Source of the DNA: a virus
Length of the DNA stretch: 35,564 nucleotides
Virus record (IMG/VR): IMGVR_UViG_3300033146_004014
Span: 1-35,564 of that record
Strand: one strand, 5' to 3'
This document shows positions 692 through 20,790 of this stretch, piece by piece (the first letter of the stretch is position 1; each line of letters begins with the position of its first letter). Below the pieces are notes generated by a model. The model had not been told where the DNA came from and did not search any database. It worked only from the letters and a program-made list of their open reading frames with translations. The position numbers and the translations under genes are program-made.

Positions 692-1360
692 TTATTCGAG
701 CCGTATCACTCCCATAACAATAGATAAAGAATACACATCATCAATAGGGATATCAAATGGTCTGTATTTTTCATTATCAGAAACAAGTAATAAAAAACCT
801 TCTTTGTCTGATTTGTGAATTCTTTTAATCATTGCTCCTTGTGATGTATCTAAAACATAAACTTTATTCCATTGAAAAAAAGTATCTAAAGGTAGTTTTT
901 TACAACCCACAATATCACCACTATTATATTTAGGATACATACTGCTACCTTTTACACGTATCATAAAATCTACATTTAATTCATCAAACTCTGGTATAAT
1001 ATAGGTTTTAGTGTCGTAATCCATTACTTGCATAGAACCTGTACCAAAACCTGCCATAGCTTCTAACGGAATTAATGGTATTCCTATATTTTTATCATTA
1101 TATTCTTGCATTTTTTTTCTACGTGCGTCCGTTCTTGTATTTAATTCATCTCTAACTGTCTCAATCATTTTACCTTTTCCAGATATAAGCCATTTTAAAC
1201 TAATTTCAGGATAAACTTTTAGAATATTATGTATTTTATCACTACCAATAGAGCCATTATTTGTCAAAAAGCCATTAGAAAGGTTAGTTTTTTCACAAAA
1301 AGATTTAGCTGTAATTCCTTTAAATTCAACAAATTTTCGTAATTTTTCTTTTGAAGTCAT
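692..1360 (-). CDS. S24/LexA-like phage repressor
   Basis: This is the likely lysogeny repressor (analogue of Mu c). The N-terminal 60 residues form an XRE-type helix-turn-helix domain, with a possible recognition region around FCEKTNLSNGFL. The C-terminal half is an S24 peptidase domain: an Ala-Gly bond at 103-104 (LEAMAGFG) fits the self-cleavage site, Ser140 in KGSSMYP is the expected nucleophile and Lys179 in AMIKR the general base. Conservation of all three suggests RecA-stimulated cleavage and therefore induction by DNA damage, unlike the Clp-controlled repressor of Mu itself. It is transcribed away from the early operon, and the gap between them contains operator-like repeats (1374-1405). 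At 222 aa it has the normal size for this family. Confidence 0.92.
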   Translation of the reverse strand: MTSKEKLRKFVEFKGITAKSFCEKTNLSNGFLTNNGSIGSDKIHNILKVYPEISLKWLISGKGKMIETVRDELNTRTDARRKKMQEYNDKNIGIPLIPLEAMAGFGTGSMQVMDYDTKTYIIPEFDELNVDFMIRVKGSSMYPKYNSGDIVGCKKLPLDTFFQWNKVYVLDTSQGAMIKRIHKSDKEGFLLLVSDNEKYRPFDIPIDDVYSLSIVMGVIRLE

Positions 1361-7354: not shown

Positions 7355-7552
7355 ATGATATATTTTGACAGTAAACAAGAATTAGACAACCTTTTTAAAA
7401 TCATTGAAAACAGTCCAAACCAAAGTCCAAGTGCTATTGTTAGTTTGTATAAAAAACTTGAAAAACAATTAACTGAAATTTATCAGCGTGGCTTTGATGA
7501 TGGGATTAAAATAGATAAAGATTTATACAATATTATAAACCCTAAAGAGTGA
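7355..7552 (+). CDS. Early hypothetical protein, 65 aa
   Basis: This is a short, acidic, helical protein with a central VSLYKKLEKQLTEIYQRG segment and a C-terminal GFDDGIKIDKD. No family is recognised. It is tightly packed between two other early genes, and its stop codon lies six bases before the ATG chosen for the next gene. Confidence 0.55.
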   Translation: MIYFDSKQELDNLFKIIENSPNQSPSAIVSLYKKLEKQLTEIYQRGFDDGIKIDKDLYNIINPKE

Positions 7553-11352: not shown

Positions 11353-11616
11353 ATGAAAAACTACGAAACATTACAAGAATGCATTAAACAGCTTGAAAAG
11401 TGCGATTATCAAACTGTAGACGGTTTACATTCATTAAAAATGAATACTGCTTTTATTCAATTAAAAGAGTATGTAGAGTTGAACTATATAGCATCAAAAA
11501 TGATAAAAACATTATTAGAGCATGGATATAAATATGATGAAATGCCTAAAATATTTCAATACGCAAAACAAATTCACAAAGATTTAAATATTCTAAAAAC
11601 AACACACCATGATTAA
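11353..11616 (+). CDS. Hypothetical protein, 87 aa (paralogue of 10249 gene)
   Basis: This is a soluble helical protein. Residues 51-70 (KMIKTLLEHGYKYDEMPKIF) resemble the C-terminal part of the 10249 gene product. The N-terminal halves differ. It overlaps the nucleoid-associated protein gene by eight bases, so the two are likely to be translated together. Confidence 0.6.
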   Translation: MKNYETLQECIKQLEKCDYQTVDGLHSLKMNTAFIQLKEYVELNYIASKMIKTLLEHGYKYDEMPKIFQYAKQIHKDLNILKTTHHD

Positions 11617-12664
11617 AAAAAACAGAGCAGAAATAGTAGAATTTATTATTCACAAAGTAGGTAATAAATACAATAGTACAAGAAACCTTTTATCAGACAA
11701 ACCAACATTTGATGTTTTTGATGAAAACAGTTATCAATTAGCATTTAATTTTTTATTAAAACCATTTGTAAACCTAACTGAAAGTTATCGTTTTACACAT
11801 CGTATTGATGTAGCTGAAAACAAAATGAGCCAGTATAGTAATAACTTATTCAATAATAATGAGTTTGTAAAAACATCACAAGCAATAGTAGAGCATTTGT
11901 TTGAGCAATCAAACTCAGCTAATATTAAAACAGGTGATGTAATGATTGTGAAGTTTGCAAATATTGAAATTAATAACATTCTAACAGATGCCATTGGTAT
12001 TTTTAAGATTGAAAATAAATCGGACTTTTTTCAAACTCATATAGATGAAAATGGTAGTATCGAATTAATGTTATTAGAAGGTATTAGTACCAAAAAATTA
12101 GATAAAGGTTGTTTAATAATAAATACAACCGATAATGAAGGTAGAATAGTATTAAGTGTAGATAGCAATAATTACGATGCTCAGTACTGGATTAAAAACT
12201 TCTTAAATATTAAACCTGCTGATGATAGTAACGGACAAACAAAAAACTACATGGATTTTCTTACATTATTAGGTGAAGAAGCGAAAAATAATTTTGGGAA
12301 AAAGAAACAAAGTGAATTTTTAGCAGAAACACTTGATTACTTAAAAGAGAATGAAACACTTAATGAAGATGATTTTATCATTAATGTACTTCACGATGAC
12401 GATAATCTTGAAGCTGTATTTTTAAATACTAAAGAACAATATGAACAGGAAGAAAATATCATCTTAAAAACCAATTTTATCATCTCAGACAAAGTAGTAA
12501 AAAAGGAAAAGAAAAAGTTTAAAACCGATATTAAACTGGATACAAACATTACTATAAAAATAGACGTTGATTCTCCAGATGCAGCATCTTACTATTTAGA
12601 ACGTGGTTTTGATGATGAAAAGAAAATGTTTTATTATAAAGTGTTTTTCAATGAAGAAAAATAG
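11609..12664 (+). CDS. Nucleoid-associated protein, NdpA/YejK family
   Basis: The 351-aa length and pattern agree with the NdpA/YejK family of 37-kDa nucleoid-associated proteins. There is an N-terminal block with VEFIIHKVGNK, a central block with QAIVEHLFEQ and IKTGDVMIVKF, and the characteristic stretch DAIGIFKIENKSDFF (residues 128-142). The family binds DNA and associates with the bacterial nucleoid; some phages carry copies. Here it ends the early operon just before a terminator. It might condense or protect phage DNA, alter host chromosome structure for replicative transposition, or counter nucleoid-based silencing. Those roles are inferred. Confidence 0.8.
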   Translation: MIKKNRAEIVEFIIHKVGNKYNSTRNLLSDKPTFDVFDENSYQLAFNFLLKPFVNLTESYRFTHRIDVAENKMSQYSNNLFNNNEFVKTSQAIVEHLFEQSNSANIKTGDVMIVKFANIEINNILTDAIGIFKIENKSDFFQTHIDENGSIELMLLEGISTKKLDKGCLIINTTDNEGRIVLSVDSNNYDAQYWIKNFLNIKPADDSNGQTKNYMDFLTLLGEEAKNNFGKKKQSEFLAETLDYLKENETLNEDDFIINVLHDDDNLEAVFLNTKEQYEQEENIILKTNFIISDKVVKKEKKKFKTDIKLDTNITIKIDVDSPDAASYYLERGFDDEKKMFYYKVFFNEEK

Positions 12665-13243: not shown

Positions 13244-13432
13244 ATGGCAAGGAGCAAAGAATTCATACAATTAAGAAATAAAAGTGTAAAAATACGCTTT
13301 AACAAATTAGAAGCTAAGTATCCAAAATGGAAGCACGATGCTTTGCTAGAAGAATTAACTAAAGAATTCTATATAAGTAAGCGTACCATATCTGCCATAT
13401 TAAATAATGAAGGGAATTATAGTACTATTTAA
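13244..13432 (+). CDS. Small HTH protein, candidate late-gene activator
   Basis: This 62-aa basic protein has a central helix-turn-helix segment (DALLEELTKEFYISKRTISAIL), in which SKRTISAIL should be the recognition helix. Its position between the early and late genes corresponds to the Mor/C activators of Mu, though it is much shorter (Mu C is about 140 aa). It has its own near-perfect promoter and an almost leaderless transcript. The candidate target is the late control region, with three phased sites (19674-19734). Two AATTATAGTA copies (13415-13424 and 13459-13468) beside the gene's end are possible autoregulatory sites. The activator role is inferred. Confidence 0.7.
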   Translation: MARSKEFIQLRNKSVKIRFNKLEAKYPKWKHDALLEELTKEFYISKRTISAILNNEGNYSTI

Positions 13433-13452: not shown

Positions 13453-13523
13453 ACACCTAATTATAGTATAAACTAACGGACTGTATCCGATTACTTTATT
13501 ACTATTTTTTAGGTGTTTTTTTT
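13453..13523 (+). ncRNA. Putative small structured RNA
   Basis: Downstream of the -7 box at 13441, nested pairings close the whole segment: ACACCTAA (13453-13460) with TTAGGTGT (13509-13516), ATAGTA (13463-13468) with TACTAT (13500-13505), and CGGA (13477-13480) with TCCG (13486-13489). A T-run follows. Promoter spacing, outer stem and T-run together give a transcript of about 70 nt. No reading frame lies in it. Its 3' part is antisense to the end of the MuF gene, so the outer stem may also end that leftward operon. A simple terminator with chance promoter is the alternative. Confidence 0.5.
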
Positions 13524-14659
13524 ATACCATCAACAATACTATAAATTATAGTACCTCTATTAGTATCTTTAAACTCCTTTACAATTAAAAACATATCTTC
13601 TAAATCGGTTACTTTAAAAATATGTATCTGTTTTACAATATCTATATCTTTCGTTTTTGGAGCTATTGCCTTTACATATTTTGCTTTCTTAATAACATTA
13701 GCAATATCAAAAAGTAAGTTGTTTTTAAAGTAGCTATCTTTATGAGGTTGACTAATCATTTCTTTTAAATACCTGTTTGTAATTTTAATAGTACCTATTT
13801 TAGTTTTAACCTCTCTTGTTTTTAAGTTTCCTTTTAGCCATGTAAAAATTTCTTTACGTTGAAAATTCAATAAAGCATTTTTTGCAAATGTTGCTATTTC
13901 CTTATATTGATTAGTATCAAAATACGGATGTTTCTCATTATATACCTTTCCAGTTTTACCAACGTTTTGATTAAATTGTAAAGGTAATTTTGGCATTTTA
14001 TCTACTTCAACACCTTTATCATCTACAGGTTTATCACTTCTTTTTGTGCTACATCTACAACCATGGTCATTAATAGGATAATGCGTATCCCAAAAAGGAT
14101 GGTCAACTGGTAAAATAATACCATGCCAAGCTTTGTGCATTTTACGAGTTCTATCATCATTAACACTTAAATACATAAGGTTAGGATATAAATGTTTGGT
14201 ACGTTGTATATCTTGCCATTCACGAGCTGACCTTGCACTTGATATAGCTTGATGGTATTCCGTTTTTAAATAATTTACATTATAGGTTTTGTCTAATTTA
14301 AGAGCTTCAACTTTAAACACATCCCATTTTTTTAAAGTGCCATCATCATTATGTAATAGCTGAACCATTTCAGTAATTTGCCTATGATTTTTAAAAGCAG
14401 AAAATACACCAACATTATAATGCAACTCATTAAGCATTCTAAAGTCTGGTGAATTATACTTTATATCATTAAAATCAACTTTAAAACCTTTTGAAACACC
14501 TTTAGAAAACACATTAAAGGTTTCTTTTAAAACAGCTTGTTTATCTGGAGCATTACCATTAAAAATATCTTCAATAAGTTTTTTAAAGATACTTCTATCT
14601 ATTTTCGGAATTTCATCGGCACTTAATTGTATAGTATCACAACATTGTGAACGATACAT
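13502..14659 (-). CDS. MuF head protein with toxin-like C-terminal domain
   Basis: The N-terminal 210 residues are a MuF minor head domain: after a helical section comes RKMHKAWHGIILPVDHPFW, then DHGCRCSTKR (199-206), the typical Cys-containing end of the domain. In Mu, gpF associates with the portal and is injected or structural. Residues 285-385 form a separate domain: YLKEMISQPHKDSY, FDIANVIKKAKYVK and IHIFKVTDLEDMFLIVKEF, ending in TIIYSIVDGI. This looks like the phage BECR/EndoU/colicin-RelE-like nuclease group (PBECR) often fused to MuF. His306 and His346 are possible active-site residues. Last gene of the leftward late operon. Confidence 0.85.
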   Translation of the reverse strand: MYRSQCCDTIQLSADEIPKIDRSIFKKLIEDIFNGNAPDKQAVLKETFNVFSKGVSKGFKVDFNDIKYNSPDFRMLNELHYNVGVFSAFKNHRQITEMVQLLHNDDGTLKKWDVFKVEALKLDKTYNVNYLKTEYHQAISSARSAREWQDIQRTKHLYPNLMYLSVNDDRTRKMHKAWHGIILPVDHPFWDTHYPINDHGCRCSTKRSDKPVDDKGVEVDKMPKLPLQFNQNVGKTGKVYNEKHPYFDTNQYKEIATFAKNALLNFQRKEIFTWLKGNLKTREVKTKIGTIKITNRYLKEMISQPHKDSYFKNNLLFDIANVIKKAKYVKAIAPKTKDIDIVKQIHIFKVTDLEDMFLIVKEFKDTNRGTIIYSIVDGIKKTPKK

Positions 14660-14676
14660 TAAATCAAGTGCCTGTT

Positions 14677-15894
14677 TTACTTTTTTTCGGCTTTAGGAGT
14701 TTTAGGTTCTACTGGCTCTTTTGGTTTAGGTTCTTTTGGCTCATCAGCTAATTCAACTCCGTAAAGGCGTTCAATATAATCTTTAGATAAATTATAACCA
14801 TTTTGCATAAGCACAGCATCGATTTTAATTTTTTCAACAGGATTAGTAACACGCTCTACACCTATTTTTTCATTATCACCAATTTTATAACCTATTCTAC
14901 GCATGGTAGGTAATAGTATATCATTACACCAGTACAATATGTTTTTTAAATCAGCCTCCGTAATTTCATCTTGTGTTTGTTGGTGTACATTTGCTTGAGA
15001 ATGACTTGAGCCATTTTGCACAGTCATTGTTTGTCCGTTAATCAAAATAGAGTTTTGACTATCTACTGCTTCAATCTTTTTAAAAAACACATTAAAAGCA
15101 TCTCGATTGTTTGCTTCTTTTATTTCAATTTCAGCATGATTAGGAAATACACCATAACTCATAGAACCCATATCTTCTAACCAACCTGCAACCTCTTTTT
15201 TAATTGGGTCGCTCATACTGCCAAGTTTTGCAATTCTAATAGGTATTCCGAATACTTGCTCAAATTCATCCCAACTTGCCCAAGAGTGACGTTTTAAAAT
15301 AGTCATTGGTGTTGCTTTTTCTAACAAGCCTCTACCATCATACATTTTAGCAAATAACAAATCATCAGGAAACAAAGTGAAATCCAAACCTTTATCATCC
15401 GTAACATTTTTAACTACAATATCAAGCTCTGGTATAACATGACCTCGTGGAATATTGTTACAACCAACAATCTCGTTACCATCTTTAATTAATTGAACTA
15501 AGGAGTATTCATAAAAAATACTTTCCATTAAATAGCGTACAGCTTTAGAAAACCACTTCTTATTTATGAGCTGACTTTTTTCAGGATTTGTAATTCCTTT
15601 ATCATCTATAATTACAAAACGTTTGTTTAACATTCTTAAAATTCGGTTTTCAATAACAGCAGATAAATGCGTATCTAACATAGCATCTTCATATACGCTT
15701 TGTTGCAAGTAAGTACGTGGGTTTTGCTTGCTTTGGCGCATTTGCCTTGCTCTTTGGTAATGTGTTATTTCACGTCTATAAACCGAATGACTATTACGAA
15801 CCAAGTCCAGAACCACATTTTGTGCCTTTTTACTTAACTCAATACTATCTTTTGCAGTTATCTTTTTCCCGTTTAATTCTATAAGTTCACTCAT
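14677..15894 (-). CDS. Portal protein, DUF935 (Mu gp29-like)
   Basis: The 405-aa protein belongs to the DUF935 portal family of Mu-like phages. It has an N-terminal RAREMRQ-like segment, a conserved run with YEYSLVQLIKDGNEIVG, PRGHVIPELDIVV and LFAKMYDGRGLLEKATPM, and an anti-parallel helical C-terminal part. It forms the dodecameric ring through which DNA enters the head. The C-terminal tail (390-405) is a proline/lysine repeat (EPKPKEPVEPKTPKAEKK), probably disordered. It starts one base from the end of the gpG-like gene and lies upstream of MuF, the normal Mu order. Confidence 0.9.
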   Translation of the reverse strand: MSELIELNGKKITAKDSIELSKKAQNVVLDLVRNSHSVYRREITHYQRARQMRQSKQNPRTYLQQSVYEDAMLDTHLSAVIENRILRMLNKRFVIIDDKGITNPEKSQLINKKWFSKAVRYLMESIFYEYSLVQLIKDGNEIVGCNNIPRGHVIPELDIVVKNVTDDKGLDFTLFPDDLLFAKMYDGRGLLEKATPMTILKRHSWASWDEFEQVFGIPIRIAKLGSMSDPIKKEVAGWLEDMGSMSYGVFPNHAEIEIKEANNRDAFNVFFKKIEAVDSQNSILINGQTMTVQNGSSHSQANVHQQTQDEITEADLKNILYWCNDILLPTMRRIGYKIGDNEKIGVERVTNPVEKIKIDAVLMQNGYNLSKDYIERLYGVELADEPKEPKPKEPVEPKTPKAEKK

Positions 15895-16388
15895 TATTCA
15901 AATATTTTATCTAATTGTTTATCCATTTTCTTTTTAATGGCCTTGTTTAACTTTTCACTTTCTCCTACATGCTGTCTTTTTTCCATGCCATATTTACCTT
16001 CATTGTGAGTTTCAGCATACTCTTTATCTGTATGAAATTCCACACCATTTTTCAACTTCTTTGCACGATAACTATTCCGTAATTTATCAGCTCCAGTTTT
16101 ATGACCTGTTAGAACTGGTCTACCTTCATTTTTAGAACCGAACTTATTTAACCTTCCTATTTTACCAACTCTATTGGTTTTGTATTTGGTTTTATCACGA
16201 CCTTTTTTATCTTTTGTTTTTCGCTTTTTCCACTTAACTAAAGAGGTATCTGTAAAGCCTTCGTTTTCAAAAGTTTCTTTAATCGAGTTTAAGCCTTCAA
16301 CTTCAATAATATCTAAGGCATCGTTATTAAAGAACTCTTCCAGTTCGTTAACCATTTTCATTATATCCTCTTCCATATTATCTTTCAT
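15894..16388 (-). CDS. Phage virion morphogenesis protein (Mu gpG-like)
   Basis: This is a 164-aa protein of the family linked to head-tail joining in Mu-like phages. Signs are the segment GRPVLTGHKTGADKLRNSYR, the sequence EFHTDKEYAETHNEGKYGM and the basic C-terminal helix NKAIKKKMDKQLDKIF. The middle section is strongly basic (KWKKRKTKDKKGRDKTKYK). It shares one base with the portal gene and one base with the DUF1320 gene, so these genes are coupled. In Mu, gpG is needed for tail assembly and head completion. Confidence 0.82.
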   Translation of the reverse strand: MKDNMEEDIMKMVNELEEFFNNDALDIIEVEGLNSIKETFENEGFTDTSLVKWKKRKTKDKKGRDKTKYKTNRVGKIGRLNKFGSKNEGRPVLTGHKTGADKLRNSYRAKKLKNGVEFHTDKEYAETHNEGKYGMEKRQHVGESEKLNKAIKKKMDKQLDKIFE

Positions 16389-16801
16389 TAGAATTCTGAT
16401 TTATATTTAGTATTTCCTCCAAATTTTATAAAACCATCACCAACAGGTACATCATCATCTTTGGCTGGTAAAGGAGCTGATAAAAGTCCTGTAGCAATTC
16501 GTTCTAACCAAGACATAGCTTCTTCGAAACTACTTACTGTATCTTCATCTAAAAGGTTCGATTTTCGTTTATACAATTCATATACTACAATCTTCTTTAA
16601 GTATTTTAAAACGGTTTTATTTCGGTCATTGCCTTCAGCTTGAAAGATTGCTTCAGCATTATAATTTACAGCCAAATAACCTTTCATTTCATCAATGCTT
16701 TCTAAAATTACTTCAGTTATAATTTCATCATCACCATTAGTTACTTTTGCAATAACTTCAGGTACACCTGTTGTTTTTAATTCTTCTTTAGTTAGGAACA
16801 T
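16388..16801 (-). CDS. DUF1320 protein (Mu gp36-like)
   Basis: The protein (137 aa) matches the gp36 family of Mu-like phages: an N-terminal FLTKEELKTTGVPEVI, a helix with ESIDEMKGYLAVNYNAE, a central YLKKIVVYELYKRKSN and a C-terminal SWLERIATGLLSAPL, ending in a short loop. It acts in head-to-tail joining as an adaptor at the connector. Start and stop overlap neighbouring genes, consistent with a compact operon. Confidence 0.85.
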   Translation of the reverse strand: MFLTKEELKTTGVPEVIAKVTNGDDEIITEVILESIDEMKGYLAVNYNAEAIFQAEGNDRNKTVLKYLKKIVVYELYKRKSNLLDEDTVSSFEEAMSWLERIATGLLSAPLPAKDDDVPVGDGFIKFGGNTKYKSEF

Positions 16802-17240
16802 AATTGTTTGTCATTTTTTTATAAATAGTTGCATTAAAAGTAATTTTATAAGCAGGTTGTTTATATCGTTCGGTTAAATCTTCTTCATCTGTTTGGCTCA
16901 GTTCGGTAAAAATTTCGCTTTGTGTGCATTCTATTTTGTTAATGGTATCATCAACCCAATCTAAAATATTAAGCGATGTTTCTTTATCTTCAGCTTCATA
17001 AAAAGTATCACCACCTTTATTAAAAAATAAATACACATCTAAAGTTAAATTACCTTCTTTAACTCCTAATGTCATATCTTCATACGGAATACTTCTAATG
17101 GAAATAAAAGCACACGGAAACCCAGTAGGATAACTTTCTTTACTATTAATTTGACCTTTGTATAAATCAATCCATTTGTAAATATCCAGCTCCGTTAATT
17201 TGTTTAAAACAGTATTATATATGTCTTTTCTTACATTCAT
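16788..17240 (-). CDS. Gp37-like head-tail joining protein
   Basis: This 150-aa protein follows TerL in the leftward operon, before the DUF1320 gene, the usual place of Mu gp37-type proteins. The sequence fits: FPCAFISIRSIPYEDM, then a strand region GNLTLDVYLFFNKGGD and a C-terminal QPAYKITFNATIYKKM. The family is predicted to be a tail-terminator or neck component. It overlaps DUF1320 by 14 bases. The assignment rests on position and pattern, not a clear motif. Confidence 0.65.
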   Translation of the reverse strand: MNVRKDIYNTVLNKLTELDIYKWIDLYKGQINSKESYPTGFPCAFISIRSIPYEDMTLGVKEGNLTLDVYLFFNKGGDTFYEAEDKETSLNILDWVDDTINKIECTQSEIFTELSQTDEEDLTERYKQPAYKITFNATIYKKMTNNYVPN

Positions 17241-17250
17241 TATTTAGTAT

Positions 17251-18807
17251 TTAATAACCTCCACGAGTACGTTTTTTAATTATGGCTTGTCTTCTTCCTT
17301 TTTCAGAACTGGTTGAAGTTCCAAACAACACACGGCTTTTTCTTACTGTATTTTCTAAAGCATCTAAAATATCATCAGGAGTTTTAGTTCCTTTTTCAAA
17401 GGATAAAATATGTTCTAAAGCACGATCCATATCATCGGTATCTTTTAAGCGAATATCAAAAGTTAATAAGCCATTAAAAAAGGCTTCGGTCAATGTTGCA
17501 ATTATTCTTTCGTGCTTATCACCACTTGCATGGTCAGGCAACGGAATACCAGTACCTGCGTTTCTTTCCATAGAACTGTACCAACTTGGTTCATAAACTA
17601 CTTTTTGAGATGCAGTTGCATCATAGTATGAATTTATAGACATGCCTTTAATAGCATATTTTTTGCCCCATTCATAATGCATATCCATTGCTACAGTAAT
17701 CTCACATTGTCTATTAAATATTTCTAAAACATGCGACCTTCCATTTTCAAAGCCAAGTAAAACGCCACCTTTAAAATCACCTTCAGTTTTATAAGATAAA
17801 TCCCAAAACTCGACTAAGTAATCCCAAACTTTGTTTCCGTGATGTTTTTTAAATTTTATCCATTTTTCCTTAAAGCGTTTACCTTCTTCAATAGGATTGT
17901 TAAAGTCCTCACGTTGCGAAGTGTAATAATCATCATTAGCAATAATTTCGATTACCTCTTCTTTGGTTAATCGTTCATGCCATGATGGATTATGATTTGC
18001 ATCACAAAGATTAATAGTGCTAATGGTAAAATTCTTTGATTTTTTATACTTTTCAGCATAACCATCAATAATACCATTCTTTACAATATAGTTGTTAGAC
18101 ATCACACGTCTAAACCTACCTCTTTGACCAGCTTTACCTAAATCACCTGTTAATTTTTGAACGTTCTCTTTGGTTAGTTCAATATTCTTGGCTTGCTTTC
18201 TGTCTTCTAAATCATCCATAGAAGCAAAGTCTGGTCTTCTACCTGCAAGGTTTAAACCTCTAAATGGTTGTGTTAAACCTAAAGCCTTAAAAAACACATT
18301 GTCTTTTGTTTCGAACTCACCATCAGCCCAAGAGCCGTATTGCATTTGCATGCCAAAATCTTTAATGTATCGCTCATTACTTTCTAATTGCATTTGTAAG
18401 TTAGAAAGTAGAATTTTTGCTTGACCTTCGGTTCTACCAACCAATAAACCAAACTTCATTTCTTTATTTTGTTTTAAATGTGTGGTATTACCAACATTTG
18501 TATGCATAGACTTTGCAGCTCCTCGATACCATCTTCTTTGCTGATTGATTAACGGATTTTTATAAATTTCTAAATAACTTTGTTGATGAAACCAAGAACT
18601 TGGTGCATCTGCAAAATCCATATTTGAATTAATACCGAAATAATAATCAAAGTACTCTACATAGTTTTCAGGTTTTAGCAATCTTTTAATACGAGCTTCT
18701 TGCTCTTCAGAAGTTTCTTTTACTAAACTTTCTGAAGTAGCTGATTTAATAAACTTACATCGTTCATTAAATATTTGCCATTGCTTTTTTAATTCTGATT
18801 TAGTCAT
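17251..18807 (-). CDS. Terminase large subunit (Mu gp28-like)
   Basis: This is the 518-aa packaging motor. The ATPase part has a variant Walker A motif RGAAKSM (95-101) and Walker B DFASMDDLED (193-202). The nuclease part starts near FWDLSYKTEGD, where Asp336 is the expected first metal-binding residue. The enzyme cuts and pumps DNA into the prohead. In Mu-like phages it packages from pac near the left end into flanking host DNA. It is adjacent to the small subunit and upstream of the joining proteins. The length is normal for the family. Confidence 0.88.
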   Translation of the reverse strand: MTKSELKKQWQIFNERCKFIKSATSESLVKETSEEQEARIKRLLKPENYVEYFDYYFGINSNMDFADAPSSWFHQQSYLEIYKNPLINQQRRWYRGAAKSMHTNVGNTTHLKQNKEMKFGLLVGRTEGQAKILLSNLQMQLESNERYIKDFGMQMQYGSWADGEFETKDNVFFKALGLTQPFRGLNLAGRRPDFASMDDLEDRKQAKNIELTKENVQKLTGDLGKAGQRGRFRRVMSNNYIVKNGIIDGYAEKYKKSKNFTISTINLCDANHNPSWHERLTKEEVIEIIANDDYYTSQREDFNNPIEEGKRFKEKWIKFKKHHGNKVWDYLVEFWDLSYKTEGDFKGGVLLGFENGRSHVLEIFNRQCEITVAMDMHYEWGKKYAIKGMSINSYYDATASQKVVYEPSWYSSMERNAGTGIPLPDHASGDKHERIIATLTEAFFNGLLTFDIRLKDTDDMDRALEHILSFEKGTKTPDDILDALENTVRKSRVLFGTSTSSEKGRRQAIIKKRTRGGY

Positions 18808-19301
18808 TATAAGCTGTCTTGATATAATTCATTAACTAAATCTTGCATTACAGCAGCTACATATTTAACTTCTTCTAAACGTTTATCCTTTTCTGTTTTG
18901 GTTGGAGCGTCTAAAGCCTTTGATATTAATTTATCTGTTAAAAGATTAAAATTTTCAATAGCATAAGCTGTATGTTTTTTTTTATCGTTCAAGTCTTGAA
19001 AAGCAACTACTAATTTACGTATAGCATCAGCCGTTACTTTTGGTTTTTCACCAAGTTTTAAGGAATGAAATGTATTTAAAACTTCATTTTTCATTTCACC
19101 AATAGAAACGGAATGCATTTTTTTATAATCTTCCCAGTCATCAAGCTTTGCCCAATTCTTAACAGTATCAATATAAACATTACTTATTTCAGCAATTTCA
19201 CTAAAAGATAATCCATTAATAAACATTCGCTTTCCATCACGTTTCTTTTTATCGCTTTCAGCTTTAGGCAATCTTCCTCTTCGTATTTTCTTTTTAGCCA
19301 T
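18807..19301 (-). CDS. Terminase small subunit (DUF1804-like)
   Basis: This 164-aa protein has a basic N-terminus (KKKIRRGRLPKAESDKKKRD) and a helix-turn-helix segment (SFSEIAEISNVYIDTVKNWA), typical of small terminase subunits that recognise DNA for packaging. The C-terminal half is helical (KYVAAVMQDLVNELYQ) and suits oligomerisation. Mu gp27-type proteins (DUF1804) share this design. It lies immediately before TerL, sharing one base with it. Confidence 0.8.
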   Translation of the reverse strand: MAKKKIRRGRLPKAESDKKKRDGKRMFINGLSFSEIAEISNVYIDTVKNWAKLDDWEDYKKMHSVSIGEMKNEVLNTFHSLKLGEKPKVTADAIRKLVVAFQDLNDKKKHTAYAIENFNLLTDKLISKALDAPTKTEKDKRLEEVKYVAAVMQDLVNELYQDSL

Positions 19302-19330: not shown

Positions 19331-19615
19331 TTATTTATATGGAGCATCTATAATAATACTGTCTTCAGTAAAATCCAGACTATTAACTTTCATACCATCA
19401 TACTCAAAGTTTCTACGAATTTGAGTTAGTATTTTTCTTGGATTTTCATCTAAAACCATATTTTCAATACCAACACCAATTTCAGGAAACTCTTTATATT
19501 CTCCTTTTTGAGCAACAATAATATGTTCTTGATGTTGAGATGTTGCATCAGCAATAACAAAATCACCATTAACAATTGCTAAATCACCATTTTCATTAAG
19601 TCTAAAATCTTTCAT
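19331..19615 (-). CDS. gp25/W-like baseplate protein
   Basis: The 94-aa protein matches the small T4 gp25/P2 W baseplate wedge family as found in Bacteroidota phages: NENGDLAIVNGDFVIADAT, HQEHIIVAQKGEYKEFPEIG, then DENPRKILTQIRRNF. It should form the base of the sheath-baseplate junction. It is the first gene of the leftward operon, directly at the late control region, and far from the other baseplate genes (27900-32866), an unusual place. Confidence 0.8.
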   Translation of the reverse strand: MKDFRLNENGDLAIVNGDFVIADATSQHQEHIIVAQKGEYKEFPEIGVGIENMVLDENPRKILTQIRRNFEYDGMKVNSLDFTEDSIIIDAPYK

Positions 19616-19638
19616 ATTAATACGTCCTTATTATGGAG

Positions 19639-19669
19639 CAAAGTTGCTGTATTTGGCTTGTTTAATAAA
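19639..19669 (-). promoter_or_regulatory. Leftward late promoter
   Basis: On the minus strand, TTTA (-33, complementary to 19666-19669) is followed after 19 bp by CAACTTTG (-7, complementary to 19639-19646). Each has one mismatch to the TTTG / TAnnTTTG consensus. The first phased activator-like site ends nine bases upstream of the -33 box. The transcript would cover the terminase-to-MuF operon. Confidence 0.55.
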
Positions 19670-19673
19670 GTTG

Positions 19674-19734
19674 AATATCAATGCTTGCGATAATAATTAC
19701 AAGCATTGCGAAAATATCTGCAAGCATTGATATT
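19674..19734. promoter_or_regulatory. Three phased sites of a late activator
   Basis: CAATGCTTG (19679-19687) is followed by CAAGCATTG at 19700-19708 and again at 19721-19729; the centres are exactly 21 bp apart. The outer two form a perfect 15-bp inverted repeat (AATATCAATGCTTGC at 19674-19688 and its complement at 19720-19734). Spacing of two helical turns puts all sites on one DNA face. They sit between the two late promoters and point symmetrically toward each, the layout of an activator that starts both operons. Confidence 0.75.
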
Positions 19735-19737
19735 GCG

Positions 19738-19769
19738 TTTGTGTGAATTTATAGTTTGGTGCAATTTTG
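19738..19769 (+). promoter_or_regulatory. Rightward late promoter
   Basis: TTTG (19738-19741) and CAATTTTG (19762-19769) are 20 bp apart; the -7 box has one mismatch to TAnnTTTG, the same first-base change as the leftward promoter. The third phased site ends eight bases upstream of the -33 box. Transcription would begin about 13 bases before the start codon at 19789. A second, weaker box (TATAGTTTG) lies at 19750-19758. Confidence 0.6.
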
Positions 19770-19788
19770 CCACGTAAAACAGAAGAAA

Positions 19789-20790
19789 ATGGCGTATACA
19801 TTTGTAGTTAGTGATGAATCAATTAATAGTTATGGCTTTAGAGTTTTAACAGATGGAATTGATTTAAAACAATTTAAAAAGAACCCAATTATGCTATATA
19901 TGCATAAACGTAATACTTGGGAACCTACAGGTGATGAAGTAATCGGTAGATGGGAAAACATAAGAAAAGAAAAAGGCAAATTACTTGCTGATGCTGTTTT
20001 TGATGAAGAAAACAAATTTGCTAAAAAGATAGCAGATAAAGTTAAAGGAGGTTTTATAAAGATGGCTTCTATTGGTATTGTAAAAAAAGAAGTGAGTACA
20101 GAAAAGAAGCATTTGAAATCTGGACAAACCAGAGCTACAGTTACCAAGTCAAATCTAAACGAAATATCTATTGTAGATATGGGAGGAAATGATAACGCTC
20201 TTAAACTATATAAGGACAATGGTGATGATTTTAAAATTGAAGAATTAAATATAAAAACCCAAAATATGAAAGATTACAAAGTATTTGCGCTTGCTTTAGG
20301 TTTAGAAGCTAATGCAACTGAAAATGAAGTGCTATCAGAAATAGCCACTTTACAAAGTGATAAAAAGACAGCTGAAACTATTGTTGAAACTTTAGCTCAA
20401 GATGAAAAGGAAGCTAAAGAAATAGAAGCAAAAGACCTTATTGCTGGAGCATCTGCAAAATTGAAATTAGAAGGTGATGCTAAAGTTAGTTTTGAAAAAA
20501 ACCAAACTGCCTTATTTAATGCTGACCATGACAATGCAAAAACTGCATTAGCAATGTTAGTATCTGGATTAGAAAAAACAACTCCAGCAAAAGATGATAA
20601 ATCAATTTCTTTAGGAAAGTTTATGAAAGATGTAAACGGCAATGACAAAGGAGCTATTGATGCTAAATTAAGTTATGACTACTTACAAAAGCACAATGTA
20701 GCAGAATTGAAAAGAATTAAAAAAGATGAACCTGAAGCTTATGCTGAATTAGTAGCAAATTATGCTAAAGGTGAACGATACACTAAATAA
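19789..20790 (+). CDS. Prohead protease fused to scaffold
   Basis: The 333-aa protein starts at ATG 19789; the frame reaches back to 19756, but that lies within the promoter. The first 150 residues are a prohead protease: the catalytic His in MLYMHKRNTW (His39) and Ser in GFIKMASIGIV (Ser94), with the general order of the S78/U35 type. The rest is an acidic, Ala/Lys/Glu-rich helical part (for example AKDLIAGASAKLKLE), as expected for the scaffold removed during head maturation. In Mu, protease and scaffold share one gene as well. The capsid gene follows. Confidence 0.85.
   Translation: MAYTFVVSDESINSYGFRVLTDGIDLKQFKKNPIMLYMHKRNTWEPTGDEVIGRWENIRKEKGKLLADAVFDEENKFAKKIADKVKGGFIKMASIGIVKKEVSTEKKHLKSGQTRATVTKSNLNEISIVDMGGNDNALKLYKDNGDDFKIEELNIKTQNMKDYKVFALALGLEANATENEVLSEIATLQSDKKTAETIVETLAQDEKEAKEIEAKDLIAGASAKLKLEGDAKVSFEKNQTALFNADHDNAKTALAMLVSGLEKTTPAKDDKSISLGKFMKDVNGNDKGAIDAKLSYDYLQKHNVAELKRIKKDEPEAYAELVANYAKGERYTK

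Follow-up and report, generated by a model that had tools for sequence, protein, structure and literature searches.

How does a Mu-like (transposable) phage of Bacteroidota switch on two blocks of late genes that point away from each other? The question is raised by a viral record 35,564 bases long, analysed over its full length and referred to here as the window, in which a gap of 173 bp (19616-19788) separates two divergent late blocks. The window was assigned to the Mu-like phages on its transposase (phrog_310, E 4e-25) and DNA transposition protein (phrog_296, E 2e-26), and it carries further Mu-like marks, namely DUF3164 and a phrog_113 portal. MuA- and MuB-like genes lie on the left, followed by many small rightward early genes, a leftward block and a rightward block. 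The leftward block contains the minor head, portal, neck/adaptor, large terminase (TerL), small terminase (TerS) and 94-aa genes, and the rightward block contains protease, capsid, lysis, tail sheath and further tail genes. For the first rightward gene, the start codon is ATG 19789; the list of open reading frames gives an in-frame TTG (19756) that lies upstream of the predicted transcription start. Elsewhere in the window, GGGGTTACA occurs three times with an exact 12-bp spacing (445-477) beside the S24-type repressor gene and is likely a repressor operator or a set of end-type repeats. The early region also encodes, at 11609-12664, a nucleoid-associated protein of the NA37 type (PF04245, E 6e-34), to our knowledge an unusual cargo in Mu-like phages.

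Table 1 Coordinates of the array, promoters and genes discussed (window positions).
Feature	Position	Strand	Remark
S24-type repressor gene	692-1360	-	
62-aa HTH protein, proposed late activator	13244..13432	+	last early-region gene
Remaining left operon: neck/adaptor proteins, portal, minor head protein	13502..17240	-	
Terminase large subunit, left operon	17251..18807	-	phrog_38
HTH protein (164 aa), probable terminase small subunit, left operon	18807..19301	-	phrog_4151, phrog_1889
94-aa protein, first gene of left late operon	19331..19615	-	
Left -7 box CAACTTTG	19639..19646	-	predicted transcription start about 19634
Left -33-like box TTTA	19666..19669	-	TTT here in 35/39 sequences
Whole array	19674..19734	.	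arms 19674-19688 / 19720-19734, perfect 15-bp inverted repeat
Outer site 1, CAATGCTTG	19679..19687	+	32 nt from left -7 box; putative activator-binding site for left late transcription
Middle site, CAAGCATTG on + strand	19700..19708	-	21 bp from each outer site
Outer site 3, CAAGCATTG on + strand	19721..19729	-	32 nt from right -7 box; putative activator-binding site for right late transcription
Right -33 box TTTG	19738..19741	+	TTT here in 39/39 sequences
Right -7 box CAATTTTG	19762..19769	+	predicted transcription start about 19774
Protease/scaffold, first gene of right late operon	19789..20790	+	phrog_11321; ATG from sequence

The original prediction had placed three phased sites and two divergent promoters in this gap, and each element was found where it had been described. 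One copy of CAATGCTTG and two of CAAGCATTG lie at spacings of 21 and 21 bp, and the outer pair forms the perfect inverted repeat of 15 bp that had been noted. As the spacing corresponds to two helical turns, the three sites would lie on one face of the DNA. A scan of the window for 9-mers with three equally spaced copies inside 70 bp (spacing at least 18) returned a single case, with none in 100 Markov simulations. The boxes read TTTG-N20-CAATTTTG rightward and TTTA-N19-CAACTTTG on the minus strand, and the outer sites stand 8-9 bp upstream of the -33 boxes on both sides. They follow the consensus of the Bacteroidota primary sigma factor, -33 TTTG and -7 TAnnTTTG (PMC7366714, PMC9723704), with fitting spacing and a departure at the first base of the -7 box, where both promoters share the weakening change that had been pointed out, C in place of T. 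The -7 box of F. psychrophilum is located at -12 to -5 (PMC9723704), which would put the centre of the outer site near -49 and have the right TTTG span -36 to -33. For a full site with a box at 32 nt, the expected number in the window is 0.02; two were found, both at these promoters. The predicted leaders in the window are 15 nt rightward and 19 nt leftward.

Relatives were found with TerL alignment scans; 17 of the loci came from bacterial genomes and 59 from viral contigs. The bacterial loci were mostly from Flavobacteriia (Flavobacterium, Chryseobacterium, Capnocytophaga, Riemerella, and Mesonia). One locus, L061 (9441-9747), is a 307-bp stretch at the end of a Methylomonas MAG contig with 89% DNA identity to the TerL gene of the window; this contig is probably mis-binned or chimeric and has no bearing on the array. 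After removal of duplicates and short ends, the scored set comprised 55 distinct sequences (the window and 54 others). We scored arrays as three CAANNNTTG sites lying 20-23 bp apart and called an array present at a score of at least 15 out of 18, provided that it was equalled by at most 8 of 200 shuffles. Looking for the phased sites in relatives had been proposed as a check, and the search uncovered a triple CAAN3TTG array in 39 of the 55 sequences, with a spacing that was always 21 or 22 bp; for 36 of these 39, none of the 200 shuffles scored as high. The array-bearing sequences fall into 32 clusters below 75% identity, so the array is not one copied sequence. Information content was 1.7-1.9 bits per position in CAA and TTG and 0.1-0.6 in the centre, where the middle base was nearly always C or G and the remaining bases were free. 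The site centres were more alike within a phage than between phages (2.04 vs 1.54 matches, p 0.0005). An exact-pattern scan with CAATGCTTG...CAAGCATTG matched 28 viral contigs; the set obtained through TerL was the more informative one.

Between the outer site and the -7 box (NAnnTTTG) lay 32 nt in 39 of 39 cases rightward and 38 of 39 leftward, the single exception being 31 nt. The first base of the -7 box was C or G, not T, in 77 of 78 promoters, and TTT occupied the -33 place in 74 of 78 (divided by side in Table 1). This strict geometry across 39 sequences supports the prediction of two divergent, activator-dependent late promoters. The leftward transcript is predicted to be leaderless, starting at the A of the first ATG, in 15 of the 39 sequences (L047, L048, L049, L054, L064, L066, L068, L070, L071, L075, L095, L097, L100, L105, and L115), and to start one base before the first ATG in 9 more; the leader predicted in the window is 19 nt.

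The standard array can be displaced or incompletely conserved, as was seen in the Capnocytophaga relatives and L051. In Capnocytophaga L060, L062, and L106 (about 7370-7420) two additional minus-strand genes separate the array and its promoters from TerL, to which the distance is greater by about 1.8 kb, and the module travels with the divergence point in these rearranged genomes. In seven phages the sites have drifted in sequence but the geometry is kept. L031, L033, and L034 form a clade that carries other palindromes (TATGATAA type) with an 8-TTTG-20 spacing to the TTTG box; this was judged by eye and the clade was not counted among the 39. The most distant relatives, L113 and L114, have neither the array nor the gene for the 62-aa protein. 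Taken over this set of sequences, the array is real and conserved, and it is probably functional.

Which protein reads the array? The 62-aa HTH protein had been suggested as the activator. Of the 41 relatives with DNA covering its place, 39 yielded a homologue by profile. The location of the gene is constant: it is found where the early region ends, in convergent orientation to the last part of the left late operon. The relatives that gave no match were L113 and L114 and those whose contigs end before this place. In an AlphaFold2 model (mean pLDDT 86) the protein has helices at residues 5-25, 31-42, and 46-53, the last of which, carrying RT(V/I)xAI, is the probable recognition helix. Seven homologues do not have the arginine of this helix and show a PI-S-x-x-T form there. 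In the phages with these homologues the promoter-proximal TTG has become TTA or another sequence, while the geometry is kept. Of the 60 outer sites paired with an arginine-bearing regulator, 57 had G as the proximal base, vs 2 of 14 where the arginine is missing (Fisher p 1.7e-9, with kinship ignored). On a TerL tree, with the caveat that TerL is located between the regulator gene and the array, the arginine-less type needs 5 changes, at least 4 of them forced by well supported branches, so kinship is not sufficient to explain the link between the arginine and TTG. Recognition is not a one-residue code, because L098 keeps the arginine with different sites. In L081 and L099 the regulator and array types match each other and disagree with the TerL tree; these are mosaic phages in which both parts changed together.

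We compared array distance, taken from the two outer 9-mers chosen by geometry and not by motif, with protein distance in 40 phages by Mantel tests, whose p-values are a guide only because such tests can be liberal with structured data. Array sequence correlated with the regulator (r 0.22, p 0.011), also when five late genes (TerL, TerS, the 94-aa gene, protease, and portal) were controlled for (partial r 0.25, p 0.002). The spacing of the outer sites (42-44 bp) correlated more strongly (r 0.45, p 0.001; given the five late genes, r 0.39, p 0.0002). None of these five late genes retained a positive partial correlation given the regulator. Three early genes, available in 23-27 phages, served as extra controls. 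For spacing, the regulator correlation survived each early gene (p 0.0005) and no early gene survived the regulator. For sequence, it survived two of the three (p 0.02) and was marginal for the third (p 0.073), and the early genes given the regulator had p-values of 0.067-0.40. Of the evidence that the 62-aa protein may read the array, this covariation is the strongest. Together with the conserved location and the loss of the arginine along with the TTG half-site, it favours the suggested activator role.

The same tests bear on the possibility that the promoters work as proposed with a different reader: the 164-aa HTH protein, a host factor, or another early gene. The 164-aa protein does have a match to HTH-type DNA-binding proteins and its gene adjoins the sites. 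Against this, the sequence and spacing of the array do not track TerS, TerL, portal, protease or the 94-aa protein given the regulator, and follow the regulator given all five. TerS, moreover, would be produced only after the promoters had fired, and a host factor would leave unexplained why the site sequences change from phage to phage. We consider a different reader unlikely.

The reading that we prefer, at a probability of roughly 80% and in line with the original prediction, is that an activator bound to three dyads, the outer ones at about -49, opens both late operons, with the 62-aa protein as the reader. The gap would then be the single control point of both operons. The HTH protein, made from the end of the early region, would bind each CAAN3TTG site as a dimer. 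The outer dimers would contact RNA polymerase at each promoter and offset the poor -7 box, in which C or G stands for T. The middle dimer, equidistant from both promoters, may hold the array together cooperatively, as the spacing alone suggests, and both late operons would switch on together. Points that speak against this reading are the weak similarity of the regulator to known activators, the displaced or incomplete arrays of the Capnocytophaga relatives and L051, and the differing sites of L098.

Repressors also commonly use palindromic phased sites amid divergent promoters, and this phage encodes one of the S24 type. The three sites could thus be an operator at which a phage repressor keeps both late promoters off in the prophage. 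We regard this as quite unlikely. The core promoter is not covered by the outer sites, which stop 8 bp short of the -33 box on its upstream side, an arrangement that suits activation and resembles Mor/C promoters (PMC4390567, PMC4461284). A -7 box that is off consensus in 77 of 78 cases is not needed for a strong promoter under repression, and a likelier operator is the GGGGTTACA triple at about 445-477, beside the repressor gene. Small terminase subunits often bind repeats, and the array lies near the terminase genes, so it could instead be a DNA packaging (pac) or terminase-binding site with no part in transcription control. This is very improbable, given the fixed 32-nt distance to the promoter boxes on both sides and the lack of covariation with TerS; packaging of the Hankyphage, moreover, has been shown to begin from the left genome end (PMC12135933). 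Chance repeats in an AT-rich intergenic region are refuted by the simulations, the conservation in 39 sequences and the fixed promoter geometry, even though the number of single one-mismatch matches to the 9-mer is close to what composition predicts.

Named phages beyond this set show the same arrangement of genes. The Bacteroides Hankyphage p00, the transposable phages of P. gingivalis, and the Winoviridae (Peternella and fF4) share the gene order and the divergent late operons. Hankyphage p00 has three CATG-centred sites 21-22 bp apart; a distance of 32 nt separates the outer ones from CAATTTTG and TAATTTCG, and TTTG stands at the right -33 place. In Peternella 44 bp separate the outer sites, and the distance to the box is 32 nt on both sides. 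Compared with the phage of the window, the geometry in Hankyphage and Peternella is thus the same but the site sequences are different, and the similarity of the regulators is marginal. The array was less clear in the P. gingivalis phages, and it was absent from fF4 both by eye and by geometry; a passage of PMC7761591 shows that the authors termed ORF14 of fF4 mor-like. The Hankyphage protein in the place of the regulator (L124 8118-8387) belongs to phrog_17154 (E 4e-46), a family of unassigned function that was also matched by a P. gingivalis phage protein (E 1e-11) and by three aligned homologues of the 62-aa protein (best 2e-5). An hhalign comparison of the alignment of 62-aa homologues with the Hankyphage protein gave a probability of 8% only. 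An iterated HMM of the regulator family did not recruit the Hankyphage and Porphyromonas proteins at E 0.005; with the same HMM they were the best non-core matches among 8,783 ORFs, and in the right place. The phrog_17154 protein is likely the late activator of Hankyphage, judging from these matches and its position.

A wider reading, to which we would give even odds, is that very small late activators (the 62-aa family and phrog_17154) form a distinct family that runs the late genes of Bacteroidota Mu-like phages, Hankyphages included, through one three-site switch of fixed geometry, the site sequences diverging with the activator. If so, every virion gene would hang on one cooperative complex. 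These phages include the widespread gut Hankyphages as well as phages of oral and fish-associated bacteria. In the literature covered, with subscription journals mostly outside its scope, we found no description of their late gene control, and the passages of PMC12135933, PMC10367356, PMC7761591, and PMC8776804 contain no late control site. The proposal names an activator and its sites and predicts two starts, which makes it directly testable. It would assign a function to phrog_17154, might help to explain the incomplete virions obtained on laboratory induction of Hankyphage, and would supply activator-site pairs matched in nature.

We compared the 62-aa protein with the activators of Mu itself. 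At the family cut-off, the window protein gave no match to Mor/C (PF08765). Among 38 homologues the best Mor match had an E-value of 0.0084 and the best match to phrog_836, 'late transcriptional activator', 0.0014; the L072 regulator matched Mor at E 0.00135 and 13.9 bits, under the cut-off of 24.9. Among fold matches, Mor (1rr7, Z 4.7, 49 residues) and Mu C (9l0x, Z 4.6, 44 residues) ranked 4-5 of 70, at Z values that are common among helical HTH proteins and no better than those of other HTH proteins. VIA-align returned common HTH folds at Z < 6, Foldseek with the 62-aa protein returned no match at E 0.001 or better, and a sequence search for solved structures found no relative of it. Since the similarity to Mor/C is weak, the protein is best described, from these comparisons, as Mor/C-like and not as a member of the family.

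In Mu, late control is exerted by the C protein at four separate promoters, Plys, PI, PP, and Pmom, where its sites lie upstream of the -35 and the promoter elements are non-consensus (PMC4461284). A single divergent switch had been contrasted with these several promoters, and the contrast holds, because the strict module occurs nowhere else than at the two promoters in these phages (the window and 4-22 kb of each relative). At Pm, Mor binds as a dimer to an inverted repeat beside the core promoter, with the dyad centred at -43.5 (PMC4390567). The predicted site position in our phages fits Mor/C-type activation from a dyad upstream of the -35 place. As with Mu C, all late genes would depend on a phage HTH activator, here a proposed one, encoded just before late expression. 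The sites lie just upstream of the -35/-33 place of non-consensus core promoters, and a T run is found near the spacer of some promoters. The Mu cascade, unlike the proposed one, has three steps (Mor, then C), and a second, Mor-like step was not found in these phages. The likeness to Mor at Pm is a dyad beside the core promoter, predicted at about -49 here. However, Mor has 129 aa, takes the place of the -35 element and recognizes 5-bp half sites separated by 6 bp, whereas here the half sites are 3 bp, the centre is 3 bp and a -33-like box is retained. Unlike Mu, these phages would thus use one control point with three phased sites, a 62-aa protein, and Bacteroidota -33/-7 promoters.
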